Origin: a virus
IMG/VR virus record: IMGVR_UViG_3300046818_000017
Span: 1-31,239 of that record
Strand: one strand, 5' to 3'
Length of the DNA stretch: 31,239 bases
This document shows positions 3,311 through 30,681 of this stretch, one piece after another (position 1 is the stretch's first letter; every line of letters begins with the position of its first letter). The position numbers and the translations under genes are program-made. The notes beneath the pieces were generated by a model. It saw nothing but the letters and a program-made list of their open reading frames with translations, was not told the origin of the DNA and made no database searches.

Positions 3311-3318
3311 AAATTCTC

Positions 3319-4210: not shown

Positions 4211-4510
4211 TTATCCTCCCTTCTTCTGCTGCCGGAGTGCAGGATTCAACAGGATCGGATTCACCCCAGGAAACTCCTGCTGCGGCGTTCCCGTTCCTGG
4301 CAATGCTCGCGCCTGTTCTGGGGTGACACCGGGTGCCGTGAACTGTGGATTCTCACCTATCCTAAACTGGCCAAAGGTCGGGTTGCCCAGGCTCTGCAAG
4401 CGCGTCAATAGGTAGTTGCTCAGCCACTGCTGGATTGCCAGTGCTTCTGGCGTTAGCGTCTGTACGGTCTTCTGTTTCTGCTTCTGCTTCGGATTGCTGA
4501 ACAGTCCCAT
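4211..4510 (-). CDS. Small probable virion protein, N-terminus overlaps upstream gene
   Basis: A 99-residue protein beginning MGLFSNPKQKQKQK, preceded by GAGGTGAGAG as a ribosome binding site. It has a Lys/Gln-rich N-terminus, an amphipathic helix (ALAIQQWLSNYLLTRL) and a Pro-rich C-terminal half. I do not recognise a family. The first 149 bases are also covered by the 3' end of the upstream gene in another frame, an unusually long overlap for this genome. The helix and good start signal argue that this frame is real. Position suggests a small internal virion or tail component. Confidence 0.7.
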   Translation of the reverse strand: MGLFSNPKQKQKQKTVQTLTPEALAIQQWLSNYLLTRLQSLGNPTFGQFRIGENPQFTAPGVTPEQARALPGTGTPQQEFPGVNPILLNPALRQQKKGG

Positions 4511-4895
4511 CTCTCACCTCGCTATTCATTGAAGGTTCGGCGTTGTTCTCAAACGTCAATATTACCCCATCACTAAAAGTTCCGTCTTCGTGTTTCACCA
4601 GCTTGCGCCAGATCCCGTCATTGTTCCAACTGCTCATCAGGAAGATCGCCAGCGTGGTCTCGTCATCGTCTCGCACCACGGTGCGAAAGAGCGGGAACGT
4701 CCCCGATGCGGAGATGATGTCGTGAAACATCTGTCGCACTCTGCGGGCTTCCGCACTGGTGATGGCCCGGTTCGCTCTGACCGTCGTGTGACCACCATCT
4801 TGGATGGTGAACTGCACCACGTCCCCATCCTCCGCTCGCCCGGCAATCACAAGGGGTGAGTGTTCGCTGAGATTGGATAAGATTCTGAATTGCAT
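4362..4895 (-). CDS. Uncharacterised virion-region protein with long 3' overlap
   Basis: I start this 177-residue protein at MQFRIL, preceded by AGGAGACAGT; a longer reading from 4931 runs into the nozzle gene. Residues 1-125 look like a compact alpha/beta fold with alternating strands (VVQFTI, LAIFLM, VILTF) and a helix around SAEARRVRQMFHDI. The last ~50 residues turn Glu/Ala/Asp-rich and lie over the start of the next gene in another frame, so they may be a disordered tail. Function is unknown. Position directly after the nozzle gene suggests a tail or neck accessory protein (inference). Confidence 0.7.
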   Translation of the reverse strand: MQFRILSNLSEHSPLVIAGRAEDGDVVQFTIQDGGHTTVRANRAITSAEARRVRQMFHDIISASGTFPLFRTVVRDDDETTLAIFLMSSWNNDGIWRKLVKHEDGTFSDGVILTFENNAEPSMNSEVRDGTVQQSEAEAETEDRTDANARSTGNPAVAEQLPIDALAEPGQPDLWPV

Positions 4896-4903
4896 ACTGT
4901 CTC

Positions 4904-6433
4904 CTAGAACGTATCCCCAACCCGTTCCCATTCCACTGCCAAGGGCCCCTCGATCATCAAGGGAAACTCACCGGTTCTCTGACCGAAGGTGAAACGGATA
5001 TGGGAGAACGTGACAATAAAGTTATACATGGCAATGCCCTGCGCATTGGCCGTCACGGCAATGCTACCGATAAAACTCACACCCTTATCAATCGACACTG
5101 CGACGTTGACCTTGGTCAGTGGATGGGTGCGGAAGATAAGTGAGAGCAGTTCGTTCTTGGCGTTCATGTCAGGGATGTCTTGGCTGTTGAGAGCAAAGAA
5201 ATCTTGGGTCGTGAATCCGGTGTCTGCGACCGGCACCGTCTCGGTATCTTGATACGACTTCTCTAAGTACACGCGGTCAACATTATCGGCTGCCACCAGA
5301 TATTCCATTGAGTCATCGTATTGACGAGCGTTAAAGAAGGCCGGGGCCAAGGTCTGGGTAATCTTGCCCAGTGCGGTCCGGCCTGAATAAATATCCGTGA
5401 ACCAGCGGTCAGCCTTCAAGTCGTAAATGAACATCAGCGCCTGACTCGCGCCCTCATCCACGCCCGAGGCCATCAGCAAGTAATACTCACCACGGGCCGG
5501 GAGCACCAACCCCTGAATGGTCATCATACGGTAGGGGTCCAAATAGGGTTTCAGCGATTTCACAATCGGATCGCCAATGGCTTTGAAACTGCTCCGATCC
5601 CAGGCATAGACGTTATCAGGTCCTAAGAAGAAGGCGATGTGATTCCACACTTGCCAACTCCTAGGGGCTGCCACCGTCACTCCCTCAGAATGCCGTCCCA
5701 ACTCAAACACTGGAAACAAACTTCCCGTGGGTAAGAGTTCGATGAATTCTCCCACCACGCTAATCACCGCAATCTCATCGAAGTTATAGAGCCCGGTAAT
5801 CCCGCCGCTACTGGTGTTACTCCCCACCTCCAGAAAGCCACTGCCCAAGCCGGTCCAATCTAAGAAGTTGCCATTGGCGCACCAGCGGATGCGGGCGGTG
5901 TTACTACTGCCGGTCTCATAGGTGTTGGCAATGACAATGCGTTTGTTGAAGGCAATCAGATGGCGCGCGCTGTAGTCCTGGGCAATCGGCGTGATCGTCG
6001 TGCCATCATACACCCGGACTCGGATCGGTGGGGTCGCTTCCGCCATCGTCCAGACAAACTTGTGCGCGCTGTTGGCCCAGGCAAACCGCGGGCGGAAGTT
6101 GCCGCCGCTGATGCTCGACACATTGACGTTGTAGCCGGTCTCTTTGGTGCTCCAGCCAGTAAACGTGTAGGTCGCCATGCGGTTATTGGTCAGTGCGACC
6201 AGCATATTCTCTTCATGGCCCGGCGGGGCAAAGAACATATGCACGAGGTTGCGGGTGACGTCGGTCCCGGTCGGCCCACCAATGCTGGTAATACTCAAGT
6301 CGCCACCGCGTTTGACGGTGTTATCGATCACCCGCATCCGCGTGATACTGGACAGCGTTTCTTGCGAGGTCTGGAAGCTGGAGCGGGTATCGAGTCCTTT
6401 CAGCGGGAGCGGAATGAGCCGGGTCTTACTCAT
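4904..6433 (-). CDS. Tail nozzle / packaged-DNA stabilisation protein
   Basis: A 509-residue protein beginning MSKTRLIPLPLKGLDT, with GGGAG six bases before the ATG and an 8-base overlap with the gene upstream. The body has many beta-strands with propeller-like spacing. Conserved-looking segments include FIELLPTGSLFP, SWQVWNHIAFFLG, NVYAWDRSSFKAIGDP and PARGEYYLL. This pattern matches the P22 gp10 / SU10-nozzle type of phage stabilisation protein, whose beta-propeller forms the lower neck of short tails and helps retain packaged DNA. Family assignment is from recognised pattern; the fold was not computed. Its presence without tube, sheath or tape-measure genes is the main reason for calling the phage short-tailed. 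The extreme C-terminus (PLAVEWERVGDTF) fits an edge strand. Confidence 0.75.
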   Translation of the reverse strand: MSKTRLIPLPLKGLDTRSSFQTSQETLSSITRMRVIDNTVKRGGDLSITSIGGPTGTDVTRNLVHMFFAPPGHEENMLVALTNNRMATYTFTGWSTKETGYNVNVSSISGGNFRPRFAWANSAHKFVWTMAEATPPIRVRVYDGTTITPIAQDYSARHLIAFNKRIVIANTYETGSSNTARIRWCANGNFLDWTGLGSGFLEVGSNTSSGGITGLYNFDEIAVISVVGEFIELLPTGSLFPVFELGRHSEGVTVAAPRSWQVWNHIAFFLGPDNVYAWDRSSFKAIGDPIVKSLKPYLDPYRMMTIQGLVLPARGEYYLLMASGVDEGASQALMFIYDLKADRWFTDIYSGRTALGKITQTLAPAFFNARQYDDSMEYLVAADNVDRVYLEKSYQDTETVPVADTGFTTQDFFALNSQDIPDMNAKNELLSLIFRTHPLTKVNVAVSIDKGVSFIGSIAVTANAQGIAMYNFIVTFSHIRFTFGQRTGEFPLMIEGPLAVEWERVGDTF

Positions 6434-7848: not shown

Positions 7849-8490
7849 CTATCGTTCGGCATAGAAGGAAAGGTTTTCGTCATTGACCGATTCCCACATA
7901 CTCGGAGTGGTCGGATTGACTACCGCCAGTTGCAAATTCTGCGGGAGCCGCTGAAAGAGCACGTCGCGCTCCTTGTTTCTCCCAATCGTCGGATAGACAT
8001 AGATCGAAGCAATATTCAGTAAATGCTCAAACCATTCATCTGGGGTCTCTAAGGTGCCGAGTACCGGCAGTCTGCGGAAGTTGATCGAGACCTGGGTAGT
8101 GACCGTTGCTTGCTTGGTGAAGAACCAGAACTGATTGAAGCGCCGCAGCCAGCGCAGTTGCGGCCCCTCGGGAACCGTCGTCAGGCGCGAGAGTTCGTTC
8201 CACCCGCCCCGACTCATGAATTGCCCAATCGTCAGATTGCGCATCGACTCCACCGCCCAGAAATTGGTCAGGTTGAATCCGCCGACCCCAATCGTTACGG
8301 TCGTTGCGTTGGCGGGAATGAGGAGCGGGGAAGCAAACGAGTCGAAGACATCTAGTCCCTTGACATTGGTTGCGAGGACAAGTTGGGCTTGATTGAGGAA
8401 CTTATCGAAGTCGGTATCGGTCAGATCGGTCCGATGGCCGGTGCGTGCCTTCAGTTGCGCCCGTGCATCAACGAATGAATAGATCGCCAT
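7849..8490 (-). CDS. Head-tail adaptor protein (SU10-adaptor-like)
   Basis: A 213-residue protein; the ATG overlaps the upstream stop by one base (TAATG) with AGGAGAAG just before it. The N-terminus (DARAQLKART, then DFDKFLNQAQLVLAT) matches the helical start of phage adaptor/connector proteins. A beta-rich middle follows, and then a helix near DEWFEHLLNIASIYVY and RNKERDVLFQRL. In short-tailed phages these proteins form a dodecameric ring below the portal to which the nozzle attaches. The nozzle gene four genes downstream supports this. Assignment rests on recognised pattern and position. Confidence 0.7.
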   Translation of the reverse strand: MAIYSFVDARAQLKARTGHRTDLTDTDFDKFLNQAQLVLATNVKGLDVFDSFASPLLIPANATTVTIGVGGFNLTNFWAVESMRNLTIGQFMSRGGWNELSRLTTVPEGPQLRWLRRFNQFWFFTKQATVTTQVSINFRRLPVLGTLETPDEWFEHLLNIASIYVYPTIGRNKERDVLFQRLPQNLQLAVVNPTTPSMWESVNDENLSFYAER

Positions 8491-11111
8491 TACTTCTCCT
8501 GCCCGCCGCCCGCACGTCTACCGCCGCCCGTCTGTTGGTTGGCACCGGTGGTCACGGTCGAGAGCCGTAGCGCGAACGCATTACGGTCGGTATCGGTAAA
8601 GGCAATGAGTGTGCCCGTGGGCGGATGGTACTGGAGGCGTTTGCCAACGTTGAACGCTGCCAGCGTATTCTCCGCGTACCCCGGTCCTGCTGCAATCTCC
8701 TGCGTCGTACAGGTATTGGTCACTGGATCCAGCAGATAGATCGTATCGCCGCCAATCCACCCCACCATTTTTCCGAGTTGCGCCTCCCATACCAGCCCAG
8801 GGTCGGTGTCGATCAACGGAGTACAGTTATTATTCGCGGGTAAGGCCGTGAAGCTGCCGGTGTCCAAGTCAAAGTAGCCAGTAAAGGCTCCGAACGTATA
8901 GAGACGATGGCGGATGGGGTCTACCGCGCCGTTGACGACCGCTCCCGATGATACCACACAGCCCGCCGCCCCTCGGCTCCAAGCATCGGTCAGGGGGTCA
9001 TAGAAGGTGAGACACGCCTTGTCGAGCACGAGAGCTTTTTGCGAGACCGGGTCATAGGTGGAGAAGGGGTAATCAGCGGACGGCGGCGCTGTGCCGGTTG
9101 GCGTCTTCTTTTCCCAGGTATCCGTTCCTGGAGTCCACAACCAGGTGTCGGTTTGAAAGCCACCGACATAGCCGCCCCAGCCAAACATCTTGTTGACGTT
9201 TGATAGCCAGGCCAGCGAATCGCGGGTCTGTCGGCCACAAGGCCGCCCGGTCCCTACTCCACTCGTCAGAGTGCCAGCCGTACAGGTCCCGCTCTGCGGC
9301 GTATTGAGCTGGGCAACAGTAAGGGTATTCATATTGAGTGCATAGACCGAATTGTCCGGACGGGTCTGACCGTTGCCCCAAATGAGAATGCGATTACTCT
9401 GCGTGTCCAGCGTCAAAGCGGTATGATAGAAGACATCGAAGTTGGACGTGGCCGGATTGATGACCGTATTGAGCGTGGTGTTCAAGATTTCCTGCCAGCC
9501 GAGATCCGGGGCTAACGTTCCCGAGACCTGCTTGATGCGGTGCGAGACCACCGGAGCGCTGGCGGCGCTGCTGCCTCCGGCATGATCCGCAATCACCGTA
9601 TAGCTGTAGGTCGTGTCTGCGGCTGCCGTCGAATCCGTATAGGTATAGGCATTGGTGACGGTGGCGAGTGCGGCTGCATTCCGTAGCACCCGGTATTGAG
9701 TAATATCGGTGTCGGTGATCGGAGGCGGCCAGGAAAGCACGATGGTGGTTGCGGTTGGCAGGGCATACGCCACTGGCGCGGGCACCGTACCCGTGAGCGA
9801 GGCATTACTTTCATAGGCTCCGAGATCGCGCCGAACCCCCGTCGTCGTTCGTGTCGCCGTGCTACGGGGATGCACGTAATACTTATCTGGAATCAGACTG
9901 ACGCCATAGACAGCAGCGGGATCGACGGTGGCGGCGTCTATCGCCGTTGAACTCCCGGTGAGGTGATAATTCTGGTTAGTGGCATCGACGAAGTTGGCTG
10001 CTGCGACTGTTGCATATTTCTGATTATTGGCGGGGTCGGTCTGGGCGACGCCCGACCCGGAGCCGGTTGCCCAGATCATACTGCCCGCCGCCGCACCAGC
10101 AAAAATGTTATTCTGAATAACTTGGATAGTCGGGTTGACCTTATTGGTGCGAATGAAATTTGTGGTCGTGCCCTCGCAGATATCAACAAACGTATTGTTC
10201 GTAACATACATCTCTTCGGCGCTGTTTGCCTGGCCCGCATCCGGGTCCTCAGAATGGTAGGCCAGCATAATCTTGTTGGGGGATGAGCACGACTGAATGA
10301 TGAGGTTACCCACGATGATGAGCGTGCCGCCAAGCGAATAGTCAATCTCGTAGTTACTCTGCCCGGTCCACAGCATCCGTGGGGCCGCAAGCGGGTACTT
10401 CACTTGTAGCAATCCCGGCCAATCCCCGAGACGGTTATAGAGGAGGGTGGTGGTATTGGCCCGACTCTTGACATCCTGTCCCTTCATACTGTCATGCGAC
10501 CACGAGCCCGTCATGGTAAAATTGCGAATCTCGCCGATGTAAATGTTGTGGGCGTGACCGTCATTGTTCTGGGCGTTGGTGCTGCCGCCGTTGGCAAAGA
10601 ACTCACTCCCAGTAATCGTCATGTCATACATGCGGCTCGCCCCGGCGACGTTCTCGTTGAAGGTCAGGATGCCGTTATCATTGTGGTGGAAGTAGACATT
10701 GGTCAGCACCATACTGGTGTTAGCGGGCCAGATCGGTTGGGCATTGGTCGCGTGTGCGCCGCTCATTTCAATACTGTCTACCGTCAGTGTCGTCACGGTG
10801 CCGTAGGTATGGGTTGGTCGCCACATGCCTTGGCTCCCCGGCATTTGCGCATAGTCGTGTCGCACGTGCGGGCGTTGACTGCCCACTCCACGAATCGTCA
10901 AATTGGTCGTACTCCAGGTACAAAAGTCATCGACGTACACCAGTTGATTGCCGCTGCCATCCGCCCCGTCAATCTCAATCGTGTCACCGCTGGCCGCCGC
11001 CATAATCGCCGCACATGGCAACGTATAGGTGCGGGTCGGTCCGACCTGAAGCGTGGCTGCCTCGGCCACGGGAGCGAGGGCAAGCGCGAGCATGAGTAAG
11101 AAAATTCTCAT
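8490..11111 (-). CDS. Secreted beta-helix / FN3 / beta-propeller protein
   Basis: An 873-residue protein with a clear Sec signal peptide (MRIFLLMLALALAPVAEAA, cleavage after AEA). Residues ~20-440 form a right-handed parallel beta-helix with many Asn-ladder turns, an SxxxxKGQDVKSRA segment at 207-218, and a typical closing DLGAYE at 429-434. Residues ~442-525 are a fibronectin type III domain (LSWPPP, YRVLRN, YTDST, YSYTVIADH). Residues ~535-850 look like kelch-type beta-propeller repeats (TLDTQSNRILIWGN, WLSNVNKMFGWGGY, YDPVSQKALVLD). The beta-helix is the usual fold of tailspike depolymerases and pectate lyases; a glycan-binding or cleaving role is inferred. The start overlaps the previous stop as ATGA, with a weak ribosome site, so translation is probably coupled. 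Confidence 0.8.
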   Translation of the reverse strand: MRIFLLMLALALAPVAEAATLQVGPTRTYTLPCAAIMAAASGDTIEIDGADGSGNQLVYVDDFCTWSTTNLTIRGVGSQRPHVRHDYAQMPGSQGMWRPTHTYGTVTTLTVDSIEMSGAHATNAQPIWPANTSMVLTNVYFHHNDNGILTFNENVAGASRMYDMTITGSEFFANGGSTNAQNNDGHAHNIYIGEIRNFTMTGSWSHDSMKGQDVKSRANTTTLLYNRLGDWPGLLQVKYPLAAPRMLWTGQSNYEIDYSLGGTLIIVGNLIIQSCSSPNKIMLAYHSEDPDAGQANSAEEMYVTNNTFVDICEGTTTNFIRTNKVNPTIQVIQNNIFAGAAAGSMIWATGSGSGVAQTDPANNQKYATVAAANFVDATNQNYHLTGSSTAIDAATVDPAAVYGVSLIPDKYYVHPRSTATRTTTGVRRDLGAYESNASLTGTVPAPVAYALPTATTIVLSWPPPITDTDITQYRVLRNAAALATVTNAYTYTDSTAAADTTYSYTVIADHAGGSSAASAPVVSHRIKQVSGTLAPDLGWQEILNTTLNTVINPATSNFDVFYHTALTLDTQSNRILIWGNGQTRPDNSVYALNMNTLTVAQLNTPQSGTCTAGTLTSGVGTGRPCGRQTRDSLAWLSNVNKMFGWGGYVGGFQTDTWLWTPGTDTWEKKTPTGTAPPSADYPFSTYDPVSQKALVLDKACLTFYDPLTDAWSRGAAGCVVSSGAVVNGAVDPIRHRLYTFGAFTGYFDLDTGSFTALPANNNCTPLIDTDPGLVWEAQLGKMVGWIGGDTIYLLDPVTNTCTTQEIAAGPGYAENTLAAFNVGKRLQYHPPTGTLIAFTDTDRNAFALRLSTVTTGANQQTGGGRRAGGGQEK

Positions 11112-11416
11112 TGTTGGGGTCTTGTGGCCTCTGTAGAGCCATCGGTCGGTGTCGGCGGTGCGGTGGTCGAGGTGCCGTTCTGCACGGCGGTTGCCTTCTG
11201 TTGTTCGGCTACCACCGCTTCTAATCGCGTAATCTCTGCCGTACTCTGGCGGAGTACGGCCACGCCGTTGTTAATCTGGTACTCGGCTAACTGCTTGGTG
11301 AGTCGCTGATTCTCTAACTTCTCCTGCACACAAGCGTCATCGGCTTGTGCCCGTCCTACGGGTACCCATGCCACGGTTCCCAGTGCCAACAATCCAATCA
11401 CTAAAAGTCTATACAT
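11108..11416 (-). CDS. Small secreted coiled-coil protein
   Basis: A 102-residue protein with AAGGAGGACGT directly before the ATG. Residues 1-24 are a signal peptide (MYRLLVIGLLALG..., cleavage after GRAQA). Residues ~28-75 are a Gln/Glu/Leu-rich helix with heptad spacing, and the tail is Thr/Pro-rich and probably disordered. One Cys (DDACVQ) lies just after the predicted cleavage site, but without a lipobox. Its stop overlaps the start of the large beta-helix gene as ATGA. A chaperone, anchor or assembly partner for that protein is a guess from coupling. An outer-membrane spanin is an alternative I consider less likely because no lipobox is present. Confidence 0.75.
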   Translation of the reverse strand: MYRLLVIGLLALGTVAWVPVGRAQADDACVQEKLENQRLTKQLAEYQINNGVAVLRQSTAEITRLEAVVAEQQKATAVQNGTSTTAPPTPTDGSTEATRPQQ

Positions 11417-11429
11417 ACGTCCTCCTTCT

Positions 11430-13238
11430 CTATTCGAGTTGAATGCGTCCGCTGAGAACGATCTTCCCGCTCAGTTTCGGAACGCCGAGCGGTGGAGCGA
11501 TCACCGCTCCAAATTCAATGGCGCCCAGATCCGGAGCCGTACCGGCGAAATAGCCCGGACTCATGCCAGGAAGCGCGGGCTGACTTGGCCCCCAAGTGGT
11601 AGACAAATTGAGGCCCGCATCAATGGTTTCGTAGCCTGCGGCTGGGGTGAAATCGGTCTGGGCATCCGACCAGATACGAATATTCGTGCGCCACATCATC
11701 GGTGCGGTCGTCCAACTCGGGGCCGTGGTCGTATTCCCTGCTCCATTGCCGCTGCCCATCGCGCCGCCAATCCAGAGACGGCTACCAAAGGCGGGATCTC
11801 CCGCCAGCTCCATCACCCAGTTCTTGCCCGGACTCATAATGTTGTTGACAAAAAAGATGTTCTGCATGTTCTGGTTGGAATAGGCGAGAATGCCAGAGTC
11901 CCGCCCATTACTCGTATTGTGGTAGAAGTAGCCTTTGCCGCCGTTGGGGAAGATGCCCGCCGCAACGCTGTTAACCGCCGAGAACTCCAAGTCTCCTCCC
12001 CGTGCGCACGCCGCACACCCATCGGGATTGGTCGCGGTATTGCGGTAATAGTAGAAGTTCTCGCCGCTGGCATTGAGCACCCGGCCAATCCGTGTGGCGT
12101 TGTAATAGGTATTGATGCTGTTGTCGTGGAACTGGAAGTTTATGGCTTTGGTATCTTGAATCTGAAAGCAGTAGTCCTGGCAGTTATTGAACGAATTATA
12201 ACCAATCTCAGTATTGGCATAGGTATAACTTGGGTCACCCAGATAGTTGGTGGACCAGAGGTAGATGCCAGCAGCCCCCGTATGATCGAAGACGTTGTTT
12301 AAGACTTTGTTATTGCTGCCTGGATCAATCAAGTAGAACGAACTCGTAATTGGCATGGCGTCCCGCATCGCCTGAAACACGTTCTCTTGGGTGACGTTGG
12401 CTTGGTTCACTAGCGTATATCTGTGATGGCCGTGGTCCTCATAGATCCAATTCACGAACCAGCGGTTATTCTGGAAGAGGTTGTCGTGCGCGCCGAACCG
12501 GACCCACACCGCATAATAGCCGTTGGTACAGGTCGAATTCTGAAGGGTGACGTGATGGGCTTCCTCACCGACAATGAGGCAGCTATAGGCGTTCTTGAAG
12601 TAAAACCCATCAAACGTGAGGTAGCCCTTGGTTGCGCCCGAGACCATGAACGCGCCGATGTTCTCGGGTGCGAGCTTCAAGGGTTTGGTATCGGGGTCAG
12701 CATCATCTTGGAACCGGCAGCGGGTGAACGTGCCAAAGTTCTTGCACGCTCCTTCTACTCCCTGCCATTCGACCGAGCCGGGAGCTTGCGCCAGATAATC
12801 AACCTGCGAGGTGATCCCGGGTCGGACAAAGACAATCATCTGGTCGCCAATGGTCGCATGAGCCGGGACGTTGCCACTGAAGCCATAGGCACTGTTAGCA
12901 ATCTCAAAGACGCCATTGGGAAAGCCGCCTGCTTGCGTCCAGCCCGAGGCACTGGTACCGCCATCAACAATGCACGCTCTGTTGGTTGTACACAGAAAGG
13001 TAATCAGACTGCCCGCACTGCCCGCCCTCCCAAACACCACCCGCTCCTGATAGGTACCCGCAGCCACATTGACCAGATCACCGGGATTGACGGTATCGGC
13101 GGCCTTCTGAATCGTCCGCCAGGCAGTCCCCGAAGACGTGCCATTGGCGGCATCACTGCCCGTAGTTGCGACGAAATAGGTCGTCGCGTCCACCGGAGAG
13201 ACCCACAGCAGCATAAAAATGAGTACTATCCAGCTCAT
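11430..13238 (-). CDS. Secreted right-handed beta-helix protein (pectate-lyase-like)
   Basis: A 602-residue protein. Residues 1-18 are a signal peptide (MSWIVLIFMLLWVSPVDA). It is followed by TTYFVATTGSDAANGTS and AWRTIQKAADTVNPGD, the hallmark N-terminal cap of secreted pectate-lyase-like beta-helix proteins. Solenoid repeats run to about residue 570 with many N-N and HDN turns (FHDNSINTYYN), and end with DLGAIEFG. A short C-terminal strand pair (KLSGKIVLSGRIQLE) may be a trimerisation or attachment element. No catalytic triad can be assigned by eye. The ATG overlaps the TGA of the upstream gene. Likely substrates are host capsule, exopolysaccharide or lipopolysaccharide, which is an inference. 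Confidence 0.8.
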   Translation of the reverse strand: MSWIVLIFMLLWVSPVDATTYFVATTGSDAANGTSSGTAWRTIQKAADTVNPGDLVNVAAGTYQERVVFGRAGSAGSLITFLCTTNRACIVDGGTSASGWTQAGGFPNGVFEIANSAYGFSGNVPAHATIGDQMIVFVRPGITSQVDYLAQAPGSVEWQGVEGACKNFGTFTRCRFQDDADPDTKPLKLAPENIGAFMVSGATKGYLTFDGFYFKNAYSCLIVGEEAHHVTLQNSTCTNGYYAVWVRFGAHDNLFQNNRWFVNWIYEDHGHHRYTLVNQANVTQENVFQAMRDAMPITSSFYLIDPGSNNKVLNNVFDHTGAAGIYLWSTNYLGDPSYTYANTEIGYNSFNNCQDYCFQIQDTKAINFQFHDNSINTYYNATRIGRVLNASGENFYYYRNTATNPDGCAACARGGDLEFSAVNSVAAGIFPNGGKGYFYHNTSNGRDSGILAYSNQNMQNIFFVNNIMSPGKNWVMELAGDPAFGSRLWIGGAMGSGNGAGNTTTAPSWTTAPMMWRTNIRIWSDAQTDFTPAAGYETIDAGLNLSTTWGPSQPALPGMSPGYFAGTAPDLGAIEFGAVIAPPLGVPKLSGKIVLSGRIQLE

Positions 13239-13609
13239 GGGTCAGGGGTTCCTGTCACCGTACCAGCGGGGAGGCAGCCGTTGGCCTGTGCGTAGTTAAG
13301 TGCCCGCTTCTGCAAGCTGTTGGTGGTGAGGTTAGCGGTATTAAGAATCTTACTCAAATTGACGGCTTCATCTCCCAAGACCGTACAGGTCACGGGTTTG
13401 CCGCCTTCCTTGCAGATGACTCCCGGTGTTGTCGAGGGTTCGCAAAAGATCATCCGCACCTCTTTTCCAGTCCGGGCAATAGAAATCATGTCCAGTTTCC
13501 ATGACGTGGTAGCCGGATTAGGAATCGGTGTGGTCATGTCTAACTGCTCGTCCGCGTATACCAGCCCAGCACTCCCAACCAGCAGGAACACCATAAGTAG
13601 ATGTTTCAT
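13235..13609 (-). CDS. Small secreted protein of unknown function
   Basis: A 124-residue protein with signal peptide MKHLLMVFLLVGSAGLVYA and AGGAGAAG upstream of the start. The mature part has four Cys residues (FCEPS, ICKEG, VTCTV, NGCLP), an even number that fits disulfides in an oxidising compartment. I do not recognise the fold. It overlaps both neighbours by 4 bases (ATGA), so it is translated as part of a coupled set with the FN3 protein and the beta-helix protein. It may be a partner of either. Confidence 0.75.
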   Translation of the reverse strand: MKHLLMVFLLVGSAGLVYADEQLDMTTPIPNPATTSWKLDMISIARTGKEVRMIFCEPSTTPGVICKEGGKPVTCTVLGDEAVNLSKILNTANLTTNSLQKRALNYAQANGCLPAGTVTGTPDP

Positions 13610-14007
13610 TCTTTTGCTTCTCCTTTCGTGCCGCTGGTCACGTCAACTGTCACCTTGATGTTGAGATCACCCGGTGCTTGCAGCGGCGGCAGCGGCACCG
13701 GCATGTCAACGCAGACCTCGTTGCTGGGACCACTGCGTTCCGCTCCGCGTGCGGCGAGCACCCGATAACACCACGTACTGCCGCCCTCTGCGGTCGTGTC
13801 TGTCCATGTCGTCACGTTGGCTGCGGTACTGGCACGTTCATAAAACGTCCCGGTCGCACCGTGGCGGCGCTCAACCTTGAACCCGTCCTCGGTCACGGAG
13901 TTGTCGGTCCAGGTGAGATCCACCACCCCGGCCCATCCCACCAGAGGCACCGCCCATGCCCCAACACAGGGCACCAGCAACAGCAACGTCATCTTCCAGA
14001 GTTTCAT
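13606..14007 (-). CDS. Secreted fibronectin type III protein
   Basis: A 133-residue protein with signal peptide (MKLWKMTLLLLVPCVGAWA, longer hydrophobic run to about residue 26) and AAGGAG close to the start. Residues ~27-105 are one fibronectin type III domain: VDLTWTDNSVTEDGFKVERR, TTWTDTT, WCYRVLAARGAERSGPSNEVC. The two Cys residues of the domain could pair. A Pro-rich linker and a basic/acidic tail (TSGTKGEAKE) follow. Phage FN3 domains commonly sit on virion surfaces and are thought to bind carbohydrate. Finding one alone behind a signal peptide is uncommon. Confidence 0.8.
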   Translation of the reverse strand: MKLWKMTLLLLVPCVGAWAVPLVGWAGVVDLTWTDNSVTEDGFKVERRHGATGTFYERASTAANVTTWTDTTAEGGSTWCYRVLAARGAERSGPSNEVCVDMPVPLPPLQAPGDLNIKVTVDVTSGTKGEAKE

Positions 14008-14018
14008 TCCTTCTCCTT

Positions 14019-16307
14019 TTATTGCAGCATGATTGGTCTGCGGAGTGCTCGTAACCCACTCGGGGCCGCTGGTGCCGGGTTAATCGCTACCACCGTCTCC
14101 CGCCAGGCACTGGTTGCGGCTCCGGTTGCGGTCCACGTCAGTGGTTTGGGAGTCCCGTTGGCATCGGCAAACTGCGCCGCCAGGGTTCGGGTGTTGGTAT
14201 ACAGATTGTTTTGCGTGGAGAGGCCGGTCTGGTTTGCCGTGAAGGTCGTACTGCCGCCCAACGCAGCCCACACAATACCCAAGAGCGAACCCCCAGTCGT
14301 ACCGGTTGCGGTCAGGGTCGCAGGCATCGTCGTGCCGATCGCGCCGGTGAAGGTATCCGGCGTGACCTGATTGACGCCGCTGTAGGGCAAGCACATGAGG
14401 GCGATCTCTGCCGACGAACTCCCCAACGTCACGGTCAGCGTATTGACGCCGGTGGGGGGAGCGACCAATCGGTAGATGTACAAACCCAGCGTCGATAAGG
14501 TTGTTTGCGACGTGACCAGCGTGAGCGGCACGCCATTATAGGTGACACTACTCACGGCAGACGTGCGCTGGCCGATCGCAGCATATAACACCCGGTTCGT
14601 GTCAGTGCCTGCGTCACAGCTCACCGATGCAGTAGTGCCAGTGCCAGAGACGAACGCAGCCGGTCCAGGTTCTGCGATAGGAGAAGAGGAGGTGACGAGG
14701 GTAGGTTTGACGGGAAGTGCTGTCAGCGCAAAGCCACGGGCATTGCCCCATGACCAGCCCATCGTTGTTATCCCTGCTTCGCTCGTCGCTTTGTAGGAAT
14801 CACGAAACTGGGTGGTGCCAGTCGTCGTAAACTGAATGAGGGTTTGCCCGGCATCGGGGACAACAGTCTCAACGTGGCTGCTCTTGGCAATGAGATCAAG
14901 CACGAGTCCACCGGCATCACTGGTGACGTTGACCGATCCAGAGATTTGTCCCACCGTCGAACTACTACAGCCAGGCTCGCCAAAGGGCGTTGTCTGATTC
15001 ACGTTGTGCAACGAAATCGGCACGAGCCACACAGTACCCGAACCGTTCGTCGTCCAGACCAGATTCTGTGCCCCGCCTGCTGGATTGAGAAGATAATAAA
15101 AAGCGGTATAGCGAGAGCCGGTCTGCAAGCATTCCGAGTCGGCAATCTTGGTCATTGCCACGCCATTGTAGGTCAGCGTGGCTAACCCCGCGCCTGCTGA
15201 ATAGGCATGCCCAACCGCCACCACTAACGCATCACTGGGTCCGTCCGTATGATTGTAAGAGAAGGTACCACCGGCAGTCACCGTGGTGTTGGCACTGCCA
15301 ATATAGCTGACCGCGCCTTCGACTGGAGGTATGGGATCAACAGGAGCGGTGCCGCCTGGCGCAACCACCTTGTAACAGGAGGTTGCATCGCTAATAGGAA
15401 CGGAACCCGAACAGCCTACTTCATCTGCGATCTTTATCTCATCATACAGCACTGTGTACTTGTCACCGGCGTTCGCTGGCGCAAGGCCCTTCCAGTCAGC
15501 CGCATATGTTCCCCACTTAAAGATTTGTGGGTTGACGTCGTTATAGGTGGTAGGTCCAGTAAAGTTGACCTTAAGAACACCATCGACCCAAATCTTGAGA
15601 AACCCCCCTTGCCCAGCCGCATAGACCCACTTGGCCGCAACAACGACGTCATGCCAGGTGTTTTTATCGAACTCGCCCAGCGTGTAACGGTTCCGCACCC
15701 ACTGGCTATCAATCGTACATGCGCGTGCATCAGACGTGGTGTACACGTCCCACTTATCCTTGGTCGAAACACTGCCTGCCTTGCGTTCCATTCCCAAATG
15801 CGGCGATTTGTTGATGTCGCAGGCATCTTTAAAGGTATGCCATTGCAGCATCCCCGGCCCCCGGTTGACGTTAGCATTGGAATCCACGGTATTCGTGCCG
15901 TCAACATAGATGCTCATGCCGTACCACCGCGTCTGACCGACACTCGCCGTCCCCTGAATTTCAAACTCGGTCCGGGCAATGTCCCCCATCGGCTGACCAG
16001 CAGCAGTCGGGGCGTAGAAATCTCCATAGATCCAGCCCGTCACCGTCTGCGGTAAGAAGGTCTTCACCGCGCGTGCGCCAACGCGCGGGGTAGGACTGCC
16101 GGTAATGATACTGATGTACGATGATCCGGCGACCGACTGAAAGTTCGACGGACATTTCTCGGTCGGCGTATGGAGCGAGGCAGGACATACGGTTGTATTA
16201 CCATAGGTGTTGTCATCATAGGTTGCGGAATAGAGGATGGTCGCTCCGGTCCGCACCGGCAGGAGCAGCACACACACGACGAGCAGAAAGATTCGGATAC
16301 GGTACAT
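14019..16307 (-). CDS. Secreted polysaccharide lyase (heparin-lyase-I-like) with tandem C-terminal domains
   Basis: A 762-residue protein with signal peptide (MYRIRIFLLVVCVLLLPVRTGA). Residues ~75-300 carry the signature of the heparin lyase I-type polysaccharide lyase fold (Pfam Polysacc_lyase): ARTEFEI (111-117), WYGMSIYV (128-135), QWH (155-157), W-x-D-VVVAAKW (218-227), FLKIWVDG (236-243), KWGTY (264-268). The His of QWH and Tyr of KWGTY are at the usual catalytic positions, by recollection of the family. Two homologous ~200-residue beta-sandwich domains follow (about 331-540 and 545-755), each with LVVAVG/VLYAAIG, then YNGVAMT or YNGVPLT, and a closing ALTALPV or TVVAINP strand. Likely role: beta-elimination cleavage of an acidic surface polysaccharide. 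Substrate unknown. Confidence 0.75.
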   Translation of the reverse strand: MYRIRIFLLVVCVLLLPVRTGATILYSATYDDNTYGNTTVCPASLHTPTEKCPSNFQSVAGSSYISIITGSPTPRVGARAVKTFLPQTVTGWIYGDFYAPTAAGQPMGDIARTEFEIQGTASVGQTRWYGMSIYVDGTNTVDSNANVNRGPGMLQWHTFKDACDINKSPHLGMERKAGSVSTKDKWDVYTTSDARACTIDSQWVRNRYTLGEFDKNTWHDVVVAAKWVYAAGQGGFLKIWVDGVLKVNFTGPTTYNDVNPQIFKWGTYAADWKGLAPANAGDKYTVLYDEIKIADEVGCSGSVPISDATSCYKVVAPGGTAPVDPIPPVEGAVSYIGSANTTVTAGGTFSYNHTDGPSDALVVAVGHAYSAGAGLATLTYNGVAMTKIADSECLQTGSRYTAFYYLLNPAGGAQNLVWTTNGSGTVWLVPISLHNVNQTTPFGEPGCSSSTVGQISGSVNVTSDAGGLVLDLIAKSSHVETVVPDAGQTLIQFTTTGTTQFRDSYKATSEAGITTMGWSWGNARGFALTALPVKPTLVTSSSPIAEPGPAAFVSGTGTTASVSCDAGTDTNRVLYAAIGQRTSAVSSVTYNGVPLTLVTSQTTLSTLGLYIYRLVAPPTGVNTLTVTLGSSSAEIALMCLPYSGVNQVTPDTFTGAIGTTMPATLTATGTTGGSLLGIVWAALGGSTTFTANQTGLSTQNNLYTNTRTLAAQFADANGTPKPLTWTATGAATSAWRETVVAINPAPAAPSGLRALRRPIMLQ

Positions 16308-16322
16308 ATCTCACACTCTATG

Positions 16323-19300
16323 TTACTGGACTCTGCGGAAGGTAAACTCGGCCCCAATGAACCGAACCTTGCCCACCAAATCGTCTACGACCCCACCGGT
16401 ATCATCGACATTGCGGCACATACGGATGTGGAGCAGTCGGCCAGCGGCAACCCCGGTCGCGGTCACGGCGGGATCGTCCGCATAGTTGAGTTGCAAAGAC
16501 GTGGGTTTGGTTGTGTCGGCTATACAATTGCCCGAGGCTTGGGCTGGGAACGCAACATCGTCTACCTCGCCATCGCCATTGCTGATGAGCTGGGAGCAGA
16601 AGGCGACGTTGCCGCTAATCACCGGAGAGTACCAGACATACCGAACATCAAGGGGAAGGGCGAAATCTGCCGGTAACATGATTGTCGTTTGCAGACAGGA
16701 TTCCGGCGTCTGTTCAAAATCAGCGACGCCCTTCTGCACACCTAGTGAATCCGGAGCACAGACCGCAGTCGGAACATTAGTGGCTTCCACGTCCCACAAC
16801 AGATTGGCAACCCCAGCCTGACAGCTTGCTGCCGGTAGCCATACCTTACTCGTGGTCGTCAGCACGTTGGTCGCATCGGTCGCATCAATCGTTTTGTTGG
16901 TGAGGGTGGAGGGGGTATCAACAAACTCAATCTCTCCGGCAGTTCCATTGTTACAGCCTTTGAGCGCGGTCTCGGACGTATCGGCAAAGACGCTGTAGCT
17001 ACCTGCTGTACAGGTCTTCGTATCATTCGGGGTTAAATCCACACCGCCAATTACAGCCGGTGAAGTCAAGGTTAATACCGTACCGTTCCACGTCGCCGCA
17101 CCCACACCGCCAAAGACGCCGCTGTTGTTATACTGAAGTTGCGTCGTACTACCGGCTGGCGTCCCACCACTGCCGAATGTATCCAAGGCACTAATGGTTC
17201 CGTTCTGGCACTTCTTCCACTGGGTTTCACTGGAGTTGGCGCGAATCCAGTATTCACCCGTGTTACAGGTGCCATCGGTTCCCGTTGCCACTCCCGTCAG
17301 CCGTGGGACTTCGAGCCCACTTGGCAGCCAGCGGCCAGATTGCACGAAGGTACCGTTCGATACCACATTTGCTACTAACGCCGCTGAACGCGTGGCATGC
17401 GTTGCATCGGTCCACACCGCATCCATGCGAGCAGCATCCTGGTTAGCGGTCGAACTCGAATTGAGTTGATAGAGCAGACTGCTACCTAATCCAGCCGCCG
17501 GTGTTCCCGTACTCTGTCGCCGGATGGTGAGCCCGGTGCCAACCGTCGTTGTTCCGCCATCACGAAAGCCGGTAATGAGCGGCGCGTTCTGACCTGCCGT
17601 CGCGGTACGCACTTCCAACACATTCGCAGACACGCGGCTCAGACCAACGTCTGGAGAGTTCTCTGGAAAGCTGATCGACGAGACATTCACACCGCTGCTC
17701 ACGACCTTTACTTTCCACACGCCGCCGCTGCCAAGGTTGGTTGATGTGGGACCATTCAGGTAGAGGTCGGCACCGTCACCAGCGATTCCGTAGTTTGTCG
17801 CCGTTGGTGTCCCCGGACCGAAATACACCGATCCATACGTCGGGGTGCCAATAAGTGTACCGATACGGAGGAGGTTAGTCGTCGCAAAGTTCTGGATGGT
17901 CAAGGTATTAGGAATATCGGCAGTTGGCGGCGTGAGCGTTACCGGCGCAGTCACCGTTCCACCACCACCACCTCCGCCAATCACTTGAAAGGTTCCACCC
18001 GAACAGCCAAGCCACATCGCTGAGACAGCGGCATCGGTATCAAGGAAGGTCTCACCAGTCGTGCAACTACCGGGAGGAGTCGTCCCAAACTTACTCGGTT
18101 TGGTGATTGCCGCTGAGCCAAAATCTACCGTTGTGGCTGGCTCAGCAGTAAAGACACCGGCCTCAGTCACCTTGAGAAGATCCGCTCCACCCGACTGTTC
18201 GACAATCCAATTCTTGGTCGAGGGAATCGTCATCACCATGTCACTCGTCGGAACGGTCTCGGTCACCCAGGTGCTGTTACCAGTGTCATAATAGCGGCGC
18301 TGATAGATCGTGCAGGTGGTATCGCCACAGAGATAAAAGGCTTTTGTCGGACTGGTCAGATCCATGATCCGCCAGCCATTGGCACCCACAGTAATCGACG
18401 GCGTTGTCCCACCAAGATTATAGGCGTTCTGGATGTTCGGCGTGGGATTGAGCAGAATCATATCGGTGCCGTCATAGGCGAGTCCCATCCACATCTCGTC
18501 TTGCACGTCACCGGTCACGAGCGGCGTCTTCACGTCATTGACGATCTTCACAATCGCTTTAGGCCCGGCAATGCTATTGAGTTGCAACGTAGCGGGTCCC
18601 GTATTCGGTGTCCCGGCTTTGATGACATAGCGCGTGTTGTTGGCATAGGCGGTGATTGCGGGCGTCATGGTACAGGCGTAGCTATCGTTGCCGGTTGCAC
18701 TCACGCAGCCCGTGGCGGCGGAGATCCCATCGACATCACCCGCGCCACTCCCAGCCCCGGTCAAATCACTGCCGCAACTCCATAAGGTGTTACTACCCGA
18801 GGTTCCCGTACTCTTTAAGACAAGCCCGGTTCCACACGTTAGACCAGCGACTGTTGTTAAATCGGGATCAATGGGTTGATAATCAGAGAGCGTGATACCG
18901 GTATTGGGAATGTCAGCATCGGTAATCGCCGCCATCGTCGCAGTAGTGATTCCTGCGGTAGACGAGACCTTGAGCACACCGGTCCCTGGAACAGAAGGCA
19001 TGACAAAATTATACGGTGTAGTCACCGTTGCCGGTGCATGAATCTGCAGGGTGGTTGCCGCAGCCGCACTCGGTGCGATTCCTGCGGTCAGTGTGAGCAC
19101 TCCGGCATTACTACTGCCCGCACCTGATGCGAGTGTTCCTGCGGTACTGATGTTGCCACTGTCATCAATGATAACGCTGGAGTTCTGAATCAGTTTGCCG
19201 GTGGTGCTATCGAAACGAGCAATAGCATTATCGGTTGCGCTTGCTGGACCGCCCACATCACCCGCGCCGACGCCACCACTGTCAGCCGCGCAGACCCAGT

Positions 19301-20483
19301 TACCACTGGACTTCTTCATGATCTGCGTATCGGCACACACCAACCCGGCAATCTGGCTCAGATCCGGGTCCTGTTGCTGCTTCTCGGTCTCAATTTCGGC
19401 CATCATCGCTTGTACATTGGGACTACTCAGCCCACCCGTGGTGGTCGTGGTAATTTGCGCGGCTGTATAATCACCACTTGCGGGAACCACGGCTCCTGTT
19501 CGGGTGTTAAACGACAACACGCCCACAGTATCCGTACTACAGACCCAGGTGGTGCCTGACTTCTTGATAATTTGCTGGTCGGTACAGGCGAGCCCGGCGA
19601 TCTGGGTAAGGTCGGAATCACCGATTTGCCGTTCGGTGCCCAATTCATCAAGCTGGGCTTGGACGGTCGTCCCAGCAATGGCGTTGGGAACCGAAGGAAC
19701 CGCACTCACCTGACCGGCTTGCACCTGGGTACAGGTCAACGAACCATCCGAGGCGGTATCCGAAACATAGGTACCCGCTGGGCAAGGATTGGGATTCGCT
19801 ATGAGCGGTTGTTTGCCGGTATCGAGTTGGTTGATCGCCGCTTGTACGTCGGTCGCCGTCACCGACACACCCGGAACATTGACGATCTGGGTCGCCGTGT
19901 AATCCCCGCTTGCCGAGACCACCGTGCCGCTGCGGGTATTGAAGGTTGCCACGCCAACGGTATCAACGTCACTGCCACAGACCCAGGCACTGCCATTCCA
20001 TTTATGAATTTGGTTAGTGGTACACACCAGTCCCGCAAGTTGGGTGAGGTCGGTATCGAGCGGCTGGAACTCGGCCACGATCTCAGTCAGTACGGCTTGC
20101 AGATTGGTACTGCCGATGGTTCCGGTTGCGGTATTGGTAATCTGGGTAGCGGTATAATCGCCGGTTGCTGGGCTCACCACACCGGAACGGGTATTCCACG
20201 TCGTGACGCCTGCTGACGCACTTGCTGAACCTAAGAGCCAATCACCGGCAATATCACACTTAGTAGGATCAACCCCCAAGTTCGGTGCAGTTTTACAGGT
20301 ATAGATATTGCCGTTGTTTTGCTGGACGCAGGCCTCCAACGGACTGGCGACAAACCCGGCATTGGGACAATCGGTTGGATGCGAGTAACGGACTCCGCCC
20401 CCTCCGCCACCACCACCCCCAACCCATCCCGCTTGTGCTGACGATGCCAGCACCGCGAGCACCACCCCCAGAATGTACTTCAT
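16323..20483 (-). CDS. Giant secreted fibre-like protein with Cys-paired repeats
   Basis: A 1386-residue protein, the largest here. Residues 1-18 are a signal peptide (MKYILGVVLAVLASSAQA), followed by a run of nine Gly. Residues ~95-400 hold three repeats built on NTRSGxVxxASGDYTATQI and DLTQxAGLxC...WVC, typical of tail-fibre shafts; a fourth partial copy lies at ~535-570. Residues ~415-455 (IARFDSTTGKLIQNSSVIID) are also fibre-like. Three CTTGE...WxxCxNGT modules lie at ~807-830, ~1073-1096 and ~1158-1181. TLTNKTID (1193-1200) is a common fibre motif. The C-terminal ~120 residues look like a beta-sandwich ending VGKVRFIGAEFTFRRVQ. Probable role: host attachment. The Sec signal and paired Cys are unusual for a fibre. 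Confidence 0.75.
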   Translation of the reverse strand: MKYILGVVLAVLASSAQAGWVGGGGGGGGGVRYSHPTDCPNAGFVASPLEACVQQNNGNIYTCKTAPNLGVDPTKCDIAGDWLLGSASASAGVTTWNTRSGVVSPATGDYTATQITNTATGTIGSTNLQAVLTEIVAEFQPLDTDLTQLAGLVCTTNQIHKWNGSAWVCGSDVDTVGVATFNTRSGTVVSASGDYTATQIVNVPGVSVTATDVQAAINQLDTGKQPLIANPNPCPAGTYVSDTASDGSLTCTQVQAGQVSAVPSVPNAIAGTTVQAQLDELGTERQIGDSDLTQIAGLACTDQQIIKKSGTTWVCSTDTVGVLSFNTRTGAVVPASGDYTAAQITTTTTGGLSSPNVQAMMAEIETEKQQQDPDLSQIAGLVCADTQIMKKSSGNWVCAADSGGVGAGDVGGPASATDNAIARFDSTTGKLIQNSSVIIDDSGNISTAGTLASGAGSSNAGVLTLTAGIAPSAAAATTLQIHAPATVTTPYNFVMPSVPGTGVLKVSSTAGITTATMAAITDADIPNTGITLSDYQPIDPDLTTVAGLTCGTGLVLKSTGTSGSNTLWSCGSDLTGAGSGAGDVDGISAATGCVSATGNDSYACTMTPAITAYANNTRYVIKAGTPNTGPATLQLNSIAGPKAIVKIVNDVKTPLVTGDVQDEMWMGLAYDGTDMILLNPTPNIQNAYNLGGTTPSITVGANGWRIMDLTSPTKAFYLCGDTTCTIYQRRYYDTGNSTWVTETVPTSDMVMTIPSTKNWIVEQSGGADLLKVTEAGVFTAEPATTVDFGSAAITKPSKFGTTPPGSCTTGETFLDTDAAVSAMWLGCSGGTFQVIGGGGGGGTVTAPVTLTPPTADIPNTLTIQNFATTNLLRIGTLIGTPTYGSVYFGPGTPTATNYGIAGDGADLYLNGPTSTNLGSGGVWKVKVVSSGVNVSSISFPENSPDVGLSRVSANVLEVRTATAGQNAPLITGFRDGGTTTVGTGLTIRRQSTGTPAAGLGSSLLYQLNSSSTANQDAARMDAVWTDATHATRSAALVANVVSNGTFVQSGRWLPSGLEVPRLTGVATGTDGTCNTGEYWIRANSSETQWKKCQNGTISALDTFGSGGTPAGSTTQLQYNNSGVFGGVGAATWNGTVLTLTSPAVIGGVDLTPNDTKTCTAGSYSVFADTSETALKGCNNGTAGEIEFVDTPSTLTNKTIDATDATNVLTTTSKVWLPAASCQAGVANLLWDVEATNVPTAVCAPDSLGVQKGVADFEQTPESCLQTTIMLPADFALPLDVRYVWYSPVISGNVAFCSQLISNGDGEVDDVAFPAQASGNCIADTTKPTSLQLNYADDPAVTATGVAAGRLLHIRMCRNVDDTGGVVDDLVGKVRFIGAEFTFRRVQ

Positions 20484-20487
20484 AATG

Positions 20488-20820
20488 TCACTCGAATCCT
20501 ACATAGAGGAGTCCAGAATCAATGCGCTGCACGCTGAGACCGGCATTACTAGAGAACCCCAACGGCAATTCGTATTCCGTTGCCCCGCTCGGTGCGGTGG
20601 TTTCAAAGAGTTTTCTGCCGTCACGATCAACGAGAATGAGTTTGTGACCCGCCGTCGTCACGTTGACCCAGCGCATACTGCTGACATGGATTTGTCCGGT
20701 CACAATCGGCGTGGGTGTTGCCGTATCAATCAACCACGGCGTGCGTTGGATATTGTTAGCGGCAAAACTCACCGTTGAGACGATGAGAAGACTCACCAGT
20801 CCAAGAATGAGACGAACCAT
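20488..20820 (-). CDS. Small secreted protein upstream of the fibre
   Basis: A 110-residue protein with signal peptide MVRLILGLVSLLIVSTVSFA and GGGGGAC before the start. The mature ~90 residues are beta-rich (GQIHVSSMRWVNVTTAG, KLILVDRDGRKLFETTA, ELPLGFSSNAGLSVQRID) and have no Cys. I know similar short beta-rich proteins next to capsid genes in other phages, but cannot name the family. Its stop lies 4 bases before the fibre ATG, whose ribosome site (GAGTGA) is inside this gene, so the two are coupled. A fibre-base or decoration role is a guess. Confidence 0.75.
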   Translation of the reverse strand: MVRLILGLVSLLIVSTVSFAANNIQRTPWLIDTATPTPIVTGQIHVSSMRWVNVTTAGHKLILVDRDGRKLFETTAPSGATEYELPLGFSSNAGLSVQRIDSGLLYVGFE

Positions 20821-21124: not shown

Positions 21125-22063
21125 TCAAGAACCAGGGGAACTATAGGTACCACGCCAGCCGGAATGACCGGTGCCGATACGGAAGGAGACCTTGGTTTTG
21201 ACGCCGCCGTGGTTAAAGTCGGGATCGGTTTGGGTGCGAATGCCGCGTCTCACCCACACATTCAAATCGTGCGTATTTGCCGTTACGACCCACTGACCGG
21301 GATCAGTAAGGTAATGGGTAATCTCGTACTTTAATGCCTTGGCAACGGTGTTAATGGCGTTATTGGCGGTATCTGGTTCGTACTCCGAGAGTAAGAGCCG
21401 CTTGGCAATCCACTCAAGCTGCGGTGGAACGATCAGCTTACTACCCGTCTTAGGCATGGGTAGGCCGGACTCGTTGACGATCAGGCGGAAGTTGGTGAGT
21501 GCTTCTTCGATTGCGGCTTGCGAAAGGTCGGTCGCGGTCGCTGGGCGATTGGGATATGACCCACCGCGTGCAATCGCGTGGTCAACCTTAAAGAGGGATT
21601 CCGCTGTTGGGCCAACGGGATTGTAGCCCAGGCCCGCACCGGTCACACCGAATCCCAAGGTCAAGATCTTGAAGGCTTGAATTTCGATCTCATATTGCGC
21701 AGCGGCTCCAAGCTCAGAGCCGATCTTGGGCACGATGCCATACATTTCATCTTCGACCGACTCTTCGGAGATCCGTGCTCCGAGGGCAAAAGTATAGGGC
21801 GTGTAGCGCACGGTGCCAACGACGGCGATGTTGTCGAAATCGATAGGGGCATACTCGGCCTTTGGTGCCAAGCGACCAACGGACCTGACCAGCACATCAT
21901 CAAAAAATGCCTTGCCGGTATTATTGGCGGGTTTCTGCGGGACGATATTAAAGATCGAGCGATATTGTTTCGGGAAGGTATCAACTGTACTAAACATGGC
22001 CTTTCTCAGGCCAGGCGTAATCAGTTGTACTATTTGGGGAGTCGTTAGAACGATATTAGCCAC
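21125..22063 (-). CDS. Major capsid protein (HK97 fold)
   Basis: A 312-residue protein. The start is GTG at 22063, with GGAGG nine bases upstream; the only nearby ATG is followed at once by a stop. The pattern fits podovirus-type HK97-fold major capsid proteins: an N-terminal arm, then GARISEESVEDEMYG (E-loop/spine region). ATDLSQAAIEEAL with NESGLPM lies before KLIVPPQLEWIAKRLL, NNAINTVA and YLTDPGQWVV, the usual order in this family. It forms the icosahedral head with the scaffold and portal encoded upstream. I see no separate protease or delta domain. Confidence 0.88.
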   Translation of the reverse strand: MANIVLTTPQIVQLITPGLRKAMFSTVDTFPKQYRSIFNIVPQKPANNTGKAFFDDVLVRSVGRLAPKAEYAPIDFDNIAVVGTVRYTPYTFALGARISEESVEDEMYGIVPKIGSELGAAAQYEIEIQAFKILTLGFGVTGAGLGYNPVGPTAESLFKVDHAIARGGSYPNRPATATDLSQAAIEEALTNFRLIVNESGLPMPKTGSKLIVPPQLEWIAKRLLLSEYEPDTANNAINTVAKALKYEITHYLTDPGQWVVTANTHDLNVWVRRGIRTQTDPDFNHGGVKTKVSFRIGTGHSGWRGTYSSPGS

Positions 22064-29986: not shown

Positions 29987-30021
29987 GTAATTGAATGGAT
30001 GTGTATGGGATGGACTTGCTG

Positions 30022-30030
30022 TGTGGATAA
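30022..30030 (-). promoter_or_regulatory. Perfect DnaA box TTATCCACA
   Basis: TGTGGATAA on the plus strand is the exact complement of the E. coli consensus DnaA box TTATCCACA. It lies in AT-rich DNA right next to a TACTAC box. Only one perfect copy was found, so origin function is suggestive only. Confidence 0.5.
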
Positions 30031-30083
30031 ATACTACAAAGTGTGAGGGGTCATTTCCAACCCTTCTTTCACTTCTATTTTTA

Positions 30084-30112
30084 CCTATATACACAGATAA
30101 CATACACGTAAA
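30084..30112 (-). promoter_or_regulatory. Weak candidate leftward promoter
   Basis: On the minus strand TTTACG (30112-30107) and TATAGG (30089-30084) are separated by 17 bases, each matching 4 of 6 consensus positions. It would start ~160 bases before the small-terminase gene. A second weak candidate (TTGATA-18-CATATT) lies at 30259-30230. Late promoters may instead be phage-specific. Confidence 0.2.
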
Positions 30113-30286
30113 TACTTTTATGAAGTAATCTCAAAAAAGCCCTTAGGAAACAATAATATACGTGACAATTAACCAAAAGGTGGAGGCAGGGAAGGGAAAA
30201 ACTGAAGGCTTGATGAAAGCAGGAAAATAAATATGACAAAGAAAGTCTAACAATATCAATAGAAAGATGATGTACATAAAATATAT

Positions 30287-30316
30287 TTGACAAGAAAACG
30301 TTAAATATGGTAGAAA
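30287..30316 (+). promoter_or_regulatory. Candidate rightward promoter of a small RNA
   Basis: TTGACA (30287-30292), an 18-base spacer, then TAGAAA (30311-30316; 4 of 6 matches). The -35 is perfect. Transcription would start near 30323 and reach the terminator about 100 bases on. Confidence 0.45.
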
Positions 30317-30322
30317 CAACCT

Positions 30323-30426: not shown

Positions 30427-30681
30427 GTGCTTTCGTTGTTCACTACTTGTGAGCAATACGTTATCGGACATCTTCTTTTCGCTTTCTCTACGCTCGCAAA
30501 CTTTCATTCGCACTCCAGCTTGCAGCTTCCCTGGTCGCCGCTTCGCGGCTCCCCTTCCCCCTGGTGAGGCTCTAGGCCACAACTGGCTTGCCCAAATCTA
30601 CTACCTTTGAAAAAATGGTGCGCGATTGTACGTGTGAGTGGTTTTGGATCACACGCAGTTACATGGGGGCCAGGCACCCTC

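Follow-up and report, generated by a model that had tools for sequence, protein, structure and literature searches.

Positions 1 to 31,239 of the IMG/VR virus record IMGVR_UViG_3300046818_000017 (31,239 nt; hereafter the window) contain a block of eight consecutive open reading frames (ORFs) whose products all begin with a predicted Sec signal peptide. The block runs from 20820 down to 8490 on the minus strand and encodes, in gene order, proteins of 110, 1386, 762, 133, 124, 602, 102 and 873 amino acids (aa), exactly as an earlier note on this DNA had described. The phage is tailed and uncultured, is probably short-tailed and looks virulent. We propose, with roughly even confidence, that the block encodes receptor-binding and glycan-degrading virion parts that would be exported by Sec, fold with disulfide bonds outside the cytoplasm, and attach to the particle at or after lysis.

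Signals were scored with a rule-based Sec scorer written for this analysis, which considers the charge of the n-region, an uncharged hydrophobic core and the -3/-1 rule; ten exported proteins of E. coli scored 6.2-8.7, and six cytoplasmic, membrane and phage controls gave nothing. All eight block proteins were positive (6.52-8.31), with alanine at the predicted -1 position, small residues at -3, no cysteine at +1 and neither a lipobox nor a twin arginine, the classical pattern for Sec export and cleavage by signal peptidase I. The weakest signal is that of the 602-aa protein, whose n-region (MSW) lacks a basic residue. None of the other 24 genes in the window matched, including those for the capsid, portal, TerL, an adaptor-like protein and a 509-aa structural protein, which bears out the claim of the earlier note that all eight proteins carry Sec signals and the virion genes on both sides do not. 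The background of the scorer is 2.3% in shadow ORFs and 2.9% among 2617 genes in 228 phage loci; assuming independence, the chance of a run of at least eight signalled genes among 32 is ~1e-12 to 1e-10. Across the 228 loci, some of which overlap or are near-duplicates, so that the counts are indicative, the longest signalled run was zero in 184 loci, one in 37, two in three, three in one (L066) and four in two (L005 and L125); a run of eight was found in the present phage only.

The signals also fit the layout of the genes. Four-base stop-start overlaps (13609/13606, 13238/13235 and 11111/11108) mark the starts of the 124-, 602- and 873-aa genes, and the unsignalled adaptor-like gene starts at the final base of the block (8490/8490). 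Ribosome-binding sites of the AAGGAG or GAGG type precede several block starts, some other starts have weak sites, and in the 1386-, 762- and 602-aa genes the signal is not closely followed by a plausible start. Because starts overlap upstream stops, have ribosome-binding sites and lack later alternatives, we regard the signals as part of one operon, which reads as continuous from the capsid gene upstream, through the block, to the downstream genes for the adaptor-like and 509-aa structural proteins.

Cysteine content sets the block apart as well. The mature block proteins contain 67 cysteines in 3933 residues (1.70%), versus 17 in 5189 (0.33%) for 21 other proteins of the window (Fisher p = 7e-12). 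Most of the block proteins have an even count (Table 1), and most cysteines of the 1386-aa protein are regularly paired as C-x(10-20)-C, for example CTTNQIHKWNGSAWVC, CTDQQIIKKSGTTWVC and CADTQIMKKSSGNWVC. In unsignalled collar fibres from an IMG/VR sample, the median cysteine content is 0.44%. Enrichment and pairing of this kind are the pattern of disulfide-bonded proteins that fold outside the cytoplasm, and therefore support real export. Taken with the signals and start sites, the cysteine pairs make export of the block proteins a well supported prediction, and the sequence evidence for signal cleavage is strong.

The earlier note had seen carbohydrate-directed folds in four of the eight proteins. 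This was an overstatement: only one case is clear from the predicted domains, with two or three others weaker. The clear case, and the one curated family, is the 762-aa protein, with a PF14099 polysaccharide lyase domain (1.5e-21, 77.7 bits against a Pfam cut-off of 29.9) of predicted catalytic activity; two further stretches of this protein match PHROGs of minor tail proteins (phrog_553 and phrog_2106). The weaker cases are the 602-aa beta-helix, whose N-cap resembles DUF1565; the 873-aa protein, with fn3, a kelch-like match under the Pfam cut-off and an N-terminal part that, by eye, may be beta-helical; and the 1386-aa protein, which its GDYTA/QYNN repeats and position in the virion module mark as tail-fibre-like. 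The 133-aa protein is fn3-like (Pfam/PHROGs). No peptidoglycan-hydrolase domain was found in the eight block proteins with Pfam and PHROGs. Structure models built from single sequences for the 110- and 124-aa proteins were of low confidence (predicted local distance difference test scores of 45 and 39) and were set aside.

Signalled clusters also occur in MW202554, L066, L106 and L125, which are other environmental phages. No relatives of the 1386-, 762- or 873-aa proteins were found in phage records. MW202554 (locus L005) is the nearest named phage by terminase, at 32% identity. Its tail-collar fibre (PF07484, 1.7e-23) carries a signal, as do a GH28/pectate-lyase tailspike, a LamG lectin, an 846-aa repeat protein and two smaller genes of the virion region. 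In L066, a row of three signalled genes (fibre-like, 254 aa and beta-helix) lies just upstream of TerL; L106, a contractile-tail phage by gene order, has four in its fibre region; L099 and L100 have one signalled fibre-region gene; and L125 has a run of four that includes a collar fibre. A signal was found on one of 108 complete collar ORFs in an IMG/VR sample, and most fibres that share the repeat motif but have other N-termini lack one. Since so few collar ORFs are signalled while several phages hold signalled groups, the trait is rare yet clustered by phage; on these predictions, it is not a one-off. Two apparent signals were set aside: that of the nozzle-like protein at L125:3701-6085 (789 aa, phrog_578), which is overprinted on the 3' end of the preceding gene, and that of L131, a false positive that needs a start 33 codons in and has an unconvincing core. 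Scans of genome contigs with the 136-aa protein of the L106 fibre block found nothing, and hence gave no named host. We also note that TerL of MW202554 (L005:32887-34542) is apparently split by an intein-like insertion, which would explain its divided annotation.

A separate, cysteine-rich family adjoins a collar fibre in L145, where a signalled gene pair (L145:3102-4960) encodes a protein of ~150 aa and one of 400-460 aa with cysteine-rich NPLYxxxCxGYxxAY repeats. The pair is conserved in about 30 viral contigs (L145 and L244-L273) and has no match in phage records; the signalled partner gene adjoins the gene for the larger protein in nearly all homologues. All 26 examined homologues of the 460-aa protein, down to ~50% identity, keep the N-terminal signal; 19 score at least 5.9, and in the remaining seven, judged by eye, the N-terminus resembles a signal but the cleavage site is weaker. 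The letters of the signal vary freely, in a family whose mature start, Q-V/I-I-Q-H-x-I-S-D-D, is conserved. A signal that is kept while its letters diverge is what one would expect if it functions.

Bases 1235-32473 of IMGVR_UViG_3300046684_000217 (48,670 bases) match the window exactly; identical copies of this kind are of no use as evolutionary evidence. The ends of the longer contig, which is classed as linear, form a 135-base direct repeat with one mismatch (1-135 and 48536-48670), and because the ends share this repeat the genome is probably complete and circularly closing at ~48.5 kb. It encodes TerL (phrog_38), a portal (phrog_1216), a major capsid protein (phrog_371) and a replication module with a PD-(D/E)XK nuclease, an AAA_24 ATPase and DUF3987; no integrase was seen in the genome. 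Reading all proteins of the ~48.5-kb genome, we recognised no fibre- or spike-like protein beyond the signalled block. If the eight proteins were not on the virion, the phage would therefore have no recognisable receptor-binding protein, which is an argument from absence.

We propose that the block is translated late from one structural operon, as gene order and overlaps suggest, that its products would be exported by SecYEG and cleaved by signal peptidase I after sites of the Ala-x-Ala type, and that they would then fold and form disulfides in the oxidising periplasm, consistent with the enrichment and pairing of their cysteines. Heads and the adaptor- and nozzle-like proteins, which lack signals, would assemble in the cytoplasm. 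The two pools would meet at or just before lysis, when fibres and spikes would join otherwise finished particles; P22 tailspikes and T4 fibres join finished particles in vitro. Some members, for instance the lyase and the kelch protein, may also be active as free enzymes, with released debris or biofilm as their target. The earlier note had offered three roles for the block: its products could be secreted as a glycan-modifying or biofilm-remodelling arsenal, be assembled in the periplasm as parts of the virion, or do their work once the cell has lysed. With export well supported, the evidence leans towards virion parts, because the block sits in the structural operon, the 1386-aa protein has fibre repeats, we recognised no unsignalled receptor-binding candidate in the genome, and the collar fibre of MW202554 is signalled; some members may still have a secreted role.

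Several points weigh against the proposal that the exported proteins are virion parts. We infer their membership of the particle from sequence, and a fibre exported away from the assembling head would need an unproved rendezvous with it. Pfam and PHROGs recognised no known particle-attachment domain at the mature N-termini, and the homologous collar and fibre domains that we checked in cultured phages lack signals. Across all fetched loci, the contrast in cysteine content is weak (1.18% versus 0.90%); a strong contrast is claimed for the present phage only.

The main rival is that the eight proteins are a purely secreted, non-virion set, exported during infection and freed at lysis as lyases, lectins or adhesins whose effect would be to loosen the capsule or biofilm of the host or to mask its surface. 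The PF14099 lyase, the beta-helix and the fn3 and kelch-like modules would suit such a set, as would the DUF1565-type N-terminus of the 602-aa protein, which is of a kind found in bacterial secreted proteins, and two further signalled proteins encoded outside the window and the structural operon. The latter, on the plus strand of the same genome at L013:3776-4102 (108 aa, 4 cysteines) and 4328-5002 (224 aa, 7 cysteines, with a VPAPAAL stretch near its end), adjoin replication genes. Nonetheless, the eight genes lie within a structural operon with overlapping stops and starts, the 1386-aa protein has the classic form of a repeat fibre, MW202554 has a signalled collar fibre, and the loss of all eight from the particle would leave no recognisable receptor-binding protein; we therefore regard a purely secreted role as possible but on the unlikely side. 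A mixed set, in which the virion carries the fibre and some small proteins while the lyase, kelch and beta-helix proteins are secreted as free enzymes, with export shared because target or folding conditions demand it, would account for the company of fibre-type and enzyme-type proteins here and for a comparable mix in MW202554. We consider this improbable, since the minor-tail PHROG stretches of the 762-aa lyase favour use on the virion. It is less probable still that the hydrophobic N-termini are uncleaved membrane or virion anchors, serving, for example, as an inner-membrane tether or for insertion at infection: a few members do have long hydrophobic stretches, the 133-aa protein, for instance, having 24 uncharged residues in a row, but in all eight proteins small -3 residues and a -1 alanine follow a few residues past the core, and the pairing of cysteines implies that the entire chain is translocated. 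Lastly, an artefact of wrong start codons or chance hydrophobic N-termini is hardly credible, for although the start codons are predicted and some ribosome-binding sites are weak, a run of eight stands against a 2-4% background, starts overlap upstream stops, and several genes have no alternative start just past the signal.

Table 1. Signalled block and flanking genes in the window. The caret marks the predicted cleavage site; cysteines are those of the mature protein.
Feature	Position	Strand	Predicted signal	Cleavage after residue	Cys	Remarks
110-aa predicted exported protein	20488..20820	-	MVRLILGLVSLLIVSTVSFA^ANN	20	0	first gene of block
1386-aa tail-fibre-like protein	16323..20483	-	MKYILGVVLAVLASSAQA^GWVGG	18	30	GDYTA-type and QLQYNNSGVFGG fibre repeats
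762-aa protein	14019..16307	-	MYRIRIFLLVVCVLLLPVRTGA^TIL	22	10	polysaccharide lyase PF14099 at residues 111-292
133-aa fn3-like protein	13606..14007	-	MKLWKMTLLLLVPCVGAWA^VPL	19	2	alternative cleavage site VGWA^G possible
124-aa protein	13235..13609	-	MKHLLMVFLLVGSAGLVYA^DEQ	19	4	ATGA overlap with upstream stop
602-aa right-handed beta-helix	11430..13238	-	MSWIVLIFMLLWVSPVDA^TTY	18	10	DUF1565-like N-cap
102-aa protein	11108..11416	-	MYRLLVIGLLALGTVAWVPVGRAQA^DDA	25	1	coiled coil probable (by eye)
873-aa protein	8490..11111	-	MRIFLLMLALALAPVAEA^ATL	18	10	fn3 and kelch-like repeats
213-aa probable tail adaptor	7849..8490	-	none			downstream flank of block; role suggested by position; no family match
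509-aa virion structural (nozzle-like) protein	4904..6433	-	none			downstream of block
312-aa major capsid protein (phrog_371-like)	21125..22063	-	none			upstream of block

Elsewhere in the window, positions 30001-31000 have a GC content of 0.406, versus ~0.55 elsewhere, and no long ORF; this is probably a regulatory or origin region between the late (minus-strand) and early (plus-strand) modules. A 565-aa protein encoded at 1649-3346 has several near-repeats (ARQGLDLQRLLGTGSQLLG and GPTAPS..EQLL) and is probably an internal virion or ejection protein.

The tailed-phage fibres known so far carry no signal and are produced in the cytoplasm, and particles are taken to be completed there. The proteins described here resemble the tail-collar or short tail fibres (PF07484) and repeat fibres of Caudoviricetes in their repeats and virion-module position, and MW202554 has a true collar domain; they differ in carrying a signal, which is rare among sampled collar ORFs and absent from the cultured-phage homologues that we checked. 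P22-type tailspike depolymerases, and those of the polysaccharide-lyase and glycoside-hydrolase kinds, share the polysaccharide-lyase and beta-helix modules; predicted cleavable signals and many cysteines set the present proteins apart. We found no report of signal peptides on tailed-phage fibres in the open-access literature that we searched. Tailed phages do export endolysins with a true Sec signal during infection, such as Lys44 of Oenococcus phage fOg44, and SAR endolysins (PMC6116005). Those are lysis enzymes, whereas here eight consecutive genes carry the signals, and their products include fibres, a lyase and small proteins of structural type. Coat proteins of filamentous phages, such as G3p of M13, are made as Sec preproteins (PMC8310372), and would to that extent parallel the putative virion proteins described here. 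Filamentous phages, however, assemble at the membrane and are extruded, while the present genome has the TerL, portal and major capsid protein of an ordinary tailed phage.

We tentatively suggest that a recurrent set of distantly related environmental tailed phages has Sec-exported, disulfide-stabilised receptor-binding parts that are attached outside the cytoplasm, a two-compartment assembly that is undescribed for Caudoviricetes in the literature searched. If so, assembly would be split between compartments, the Sec and Dsb functions of the host would be host factors for the phage, and fibres could use disulfides. Fibres and lyases could also come into contact with the uninfected surroundings before lysis. 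Moreover, some of the signal-bearing, polysaccharide-active "auxiliary metabolic genes" of viral metagenomes may be tail parts.

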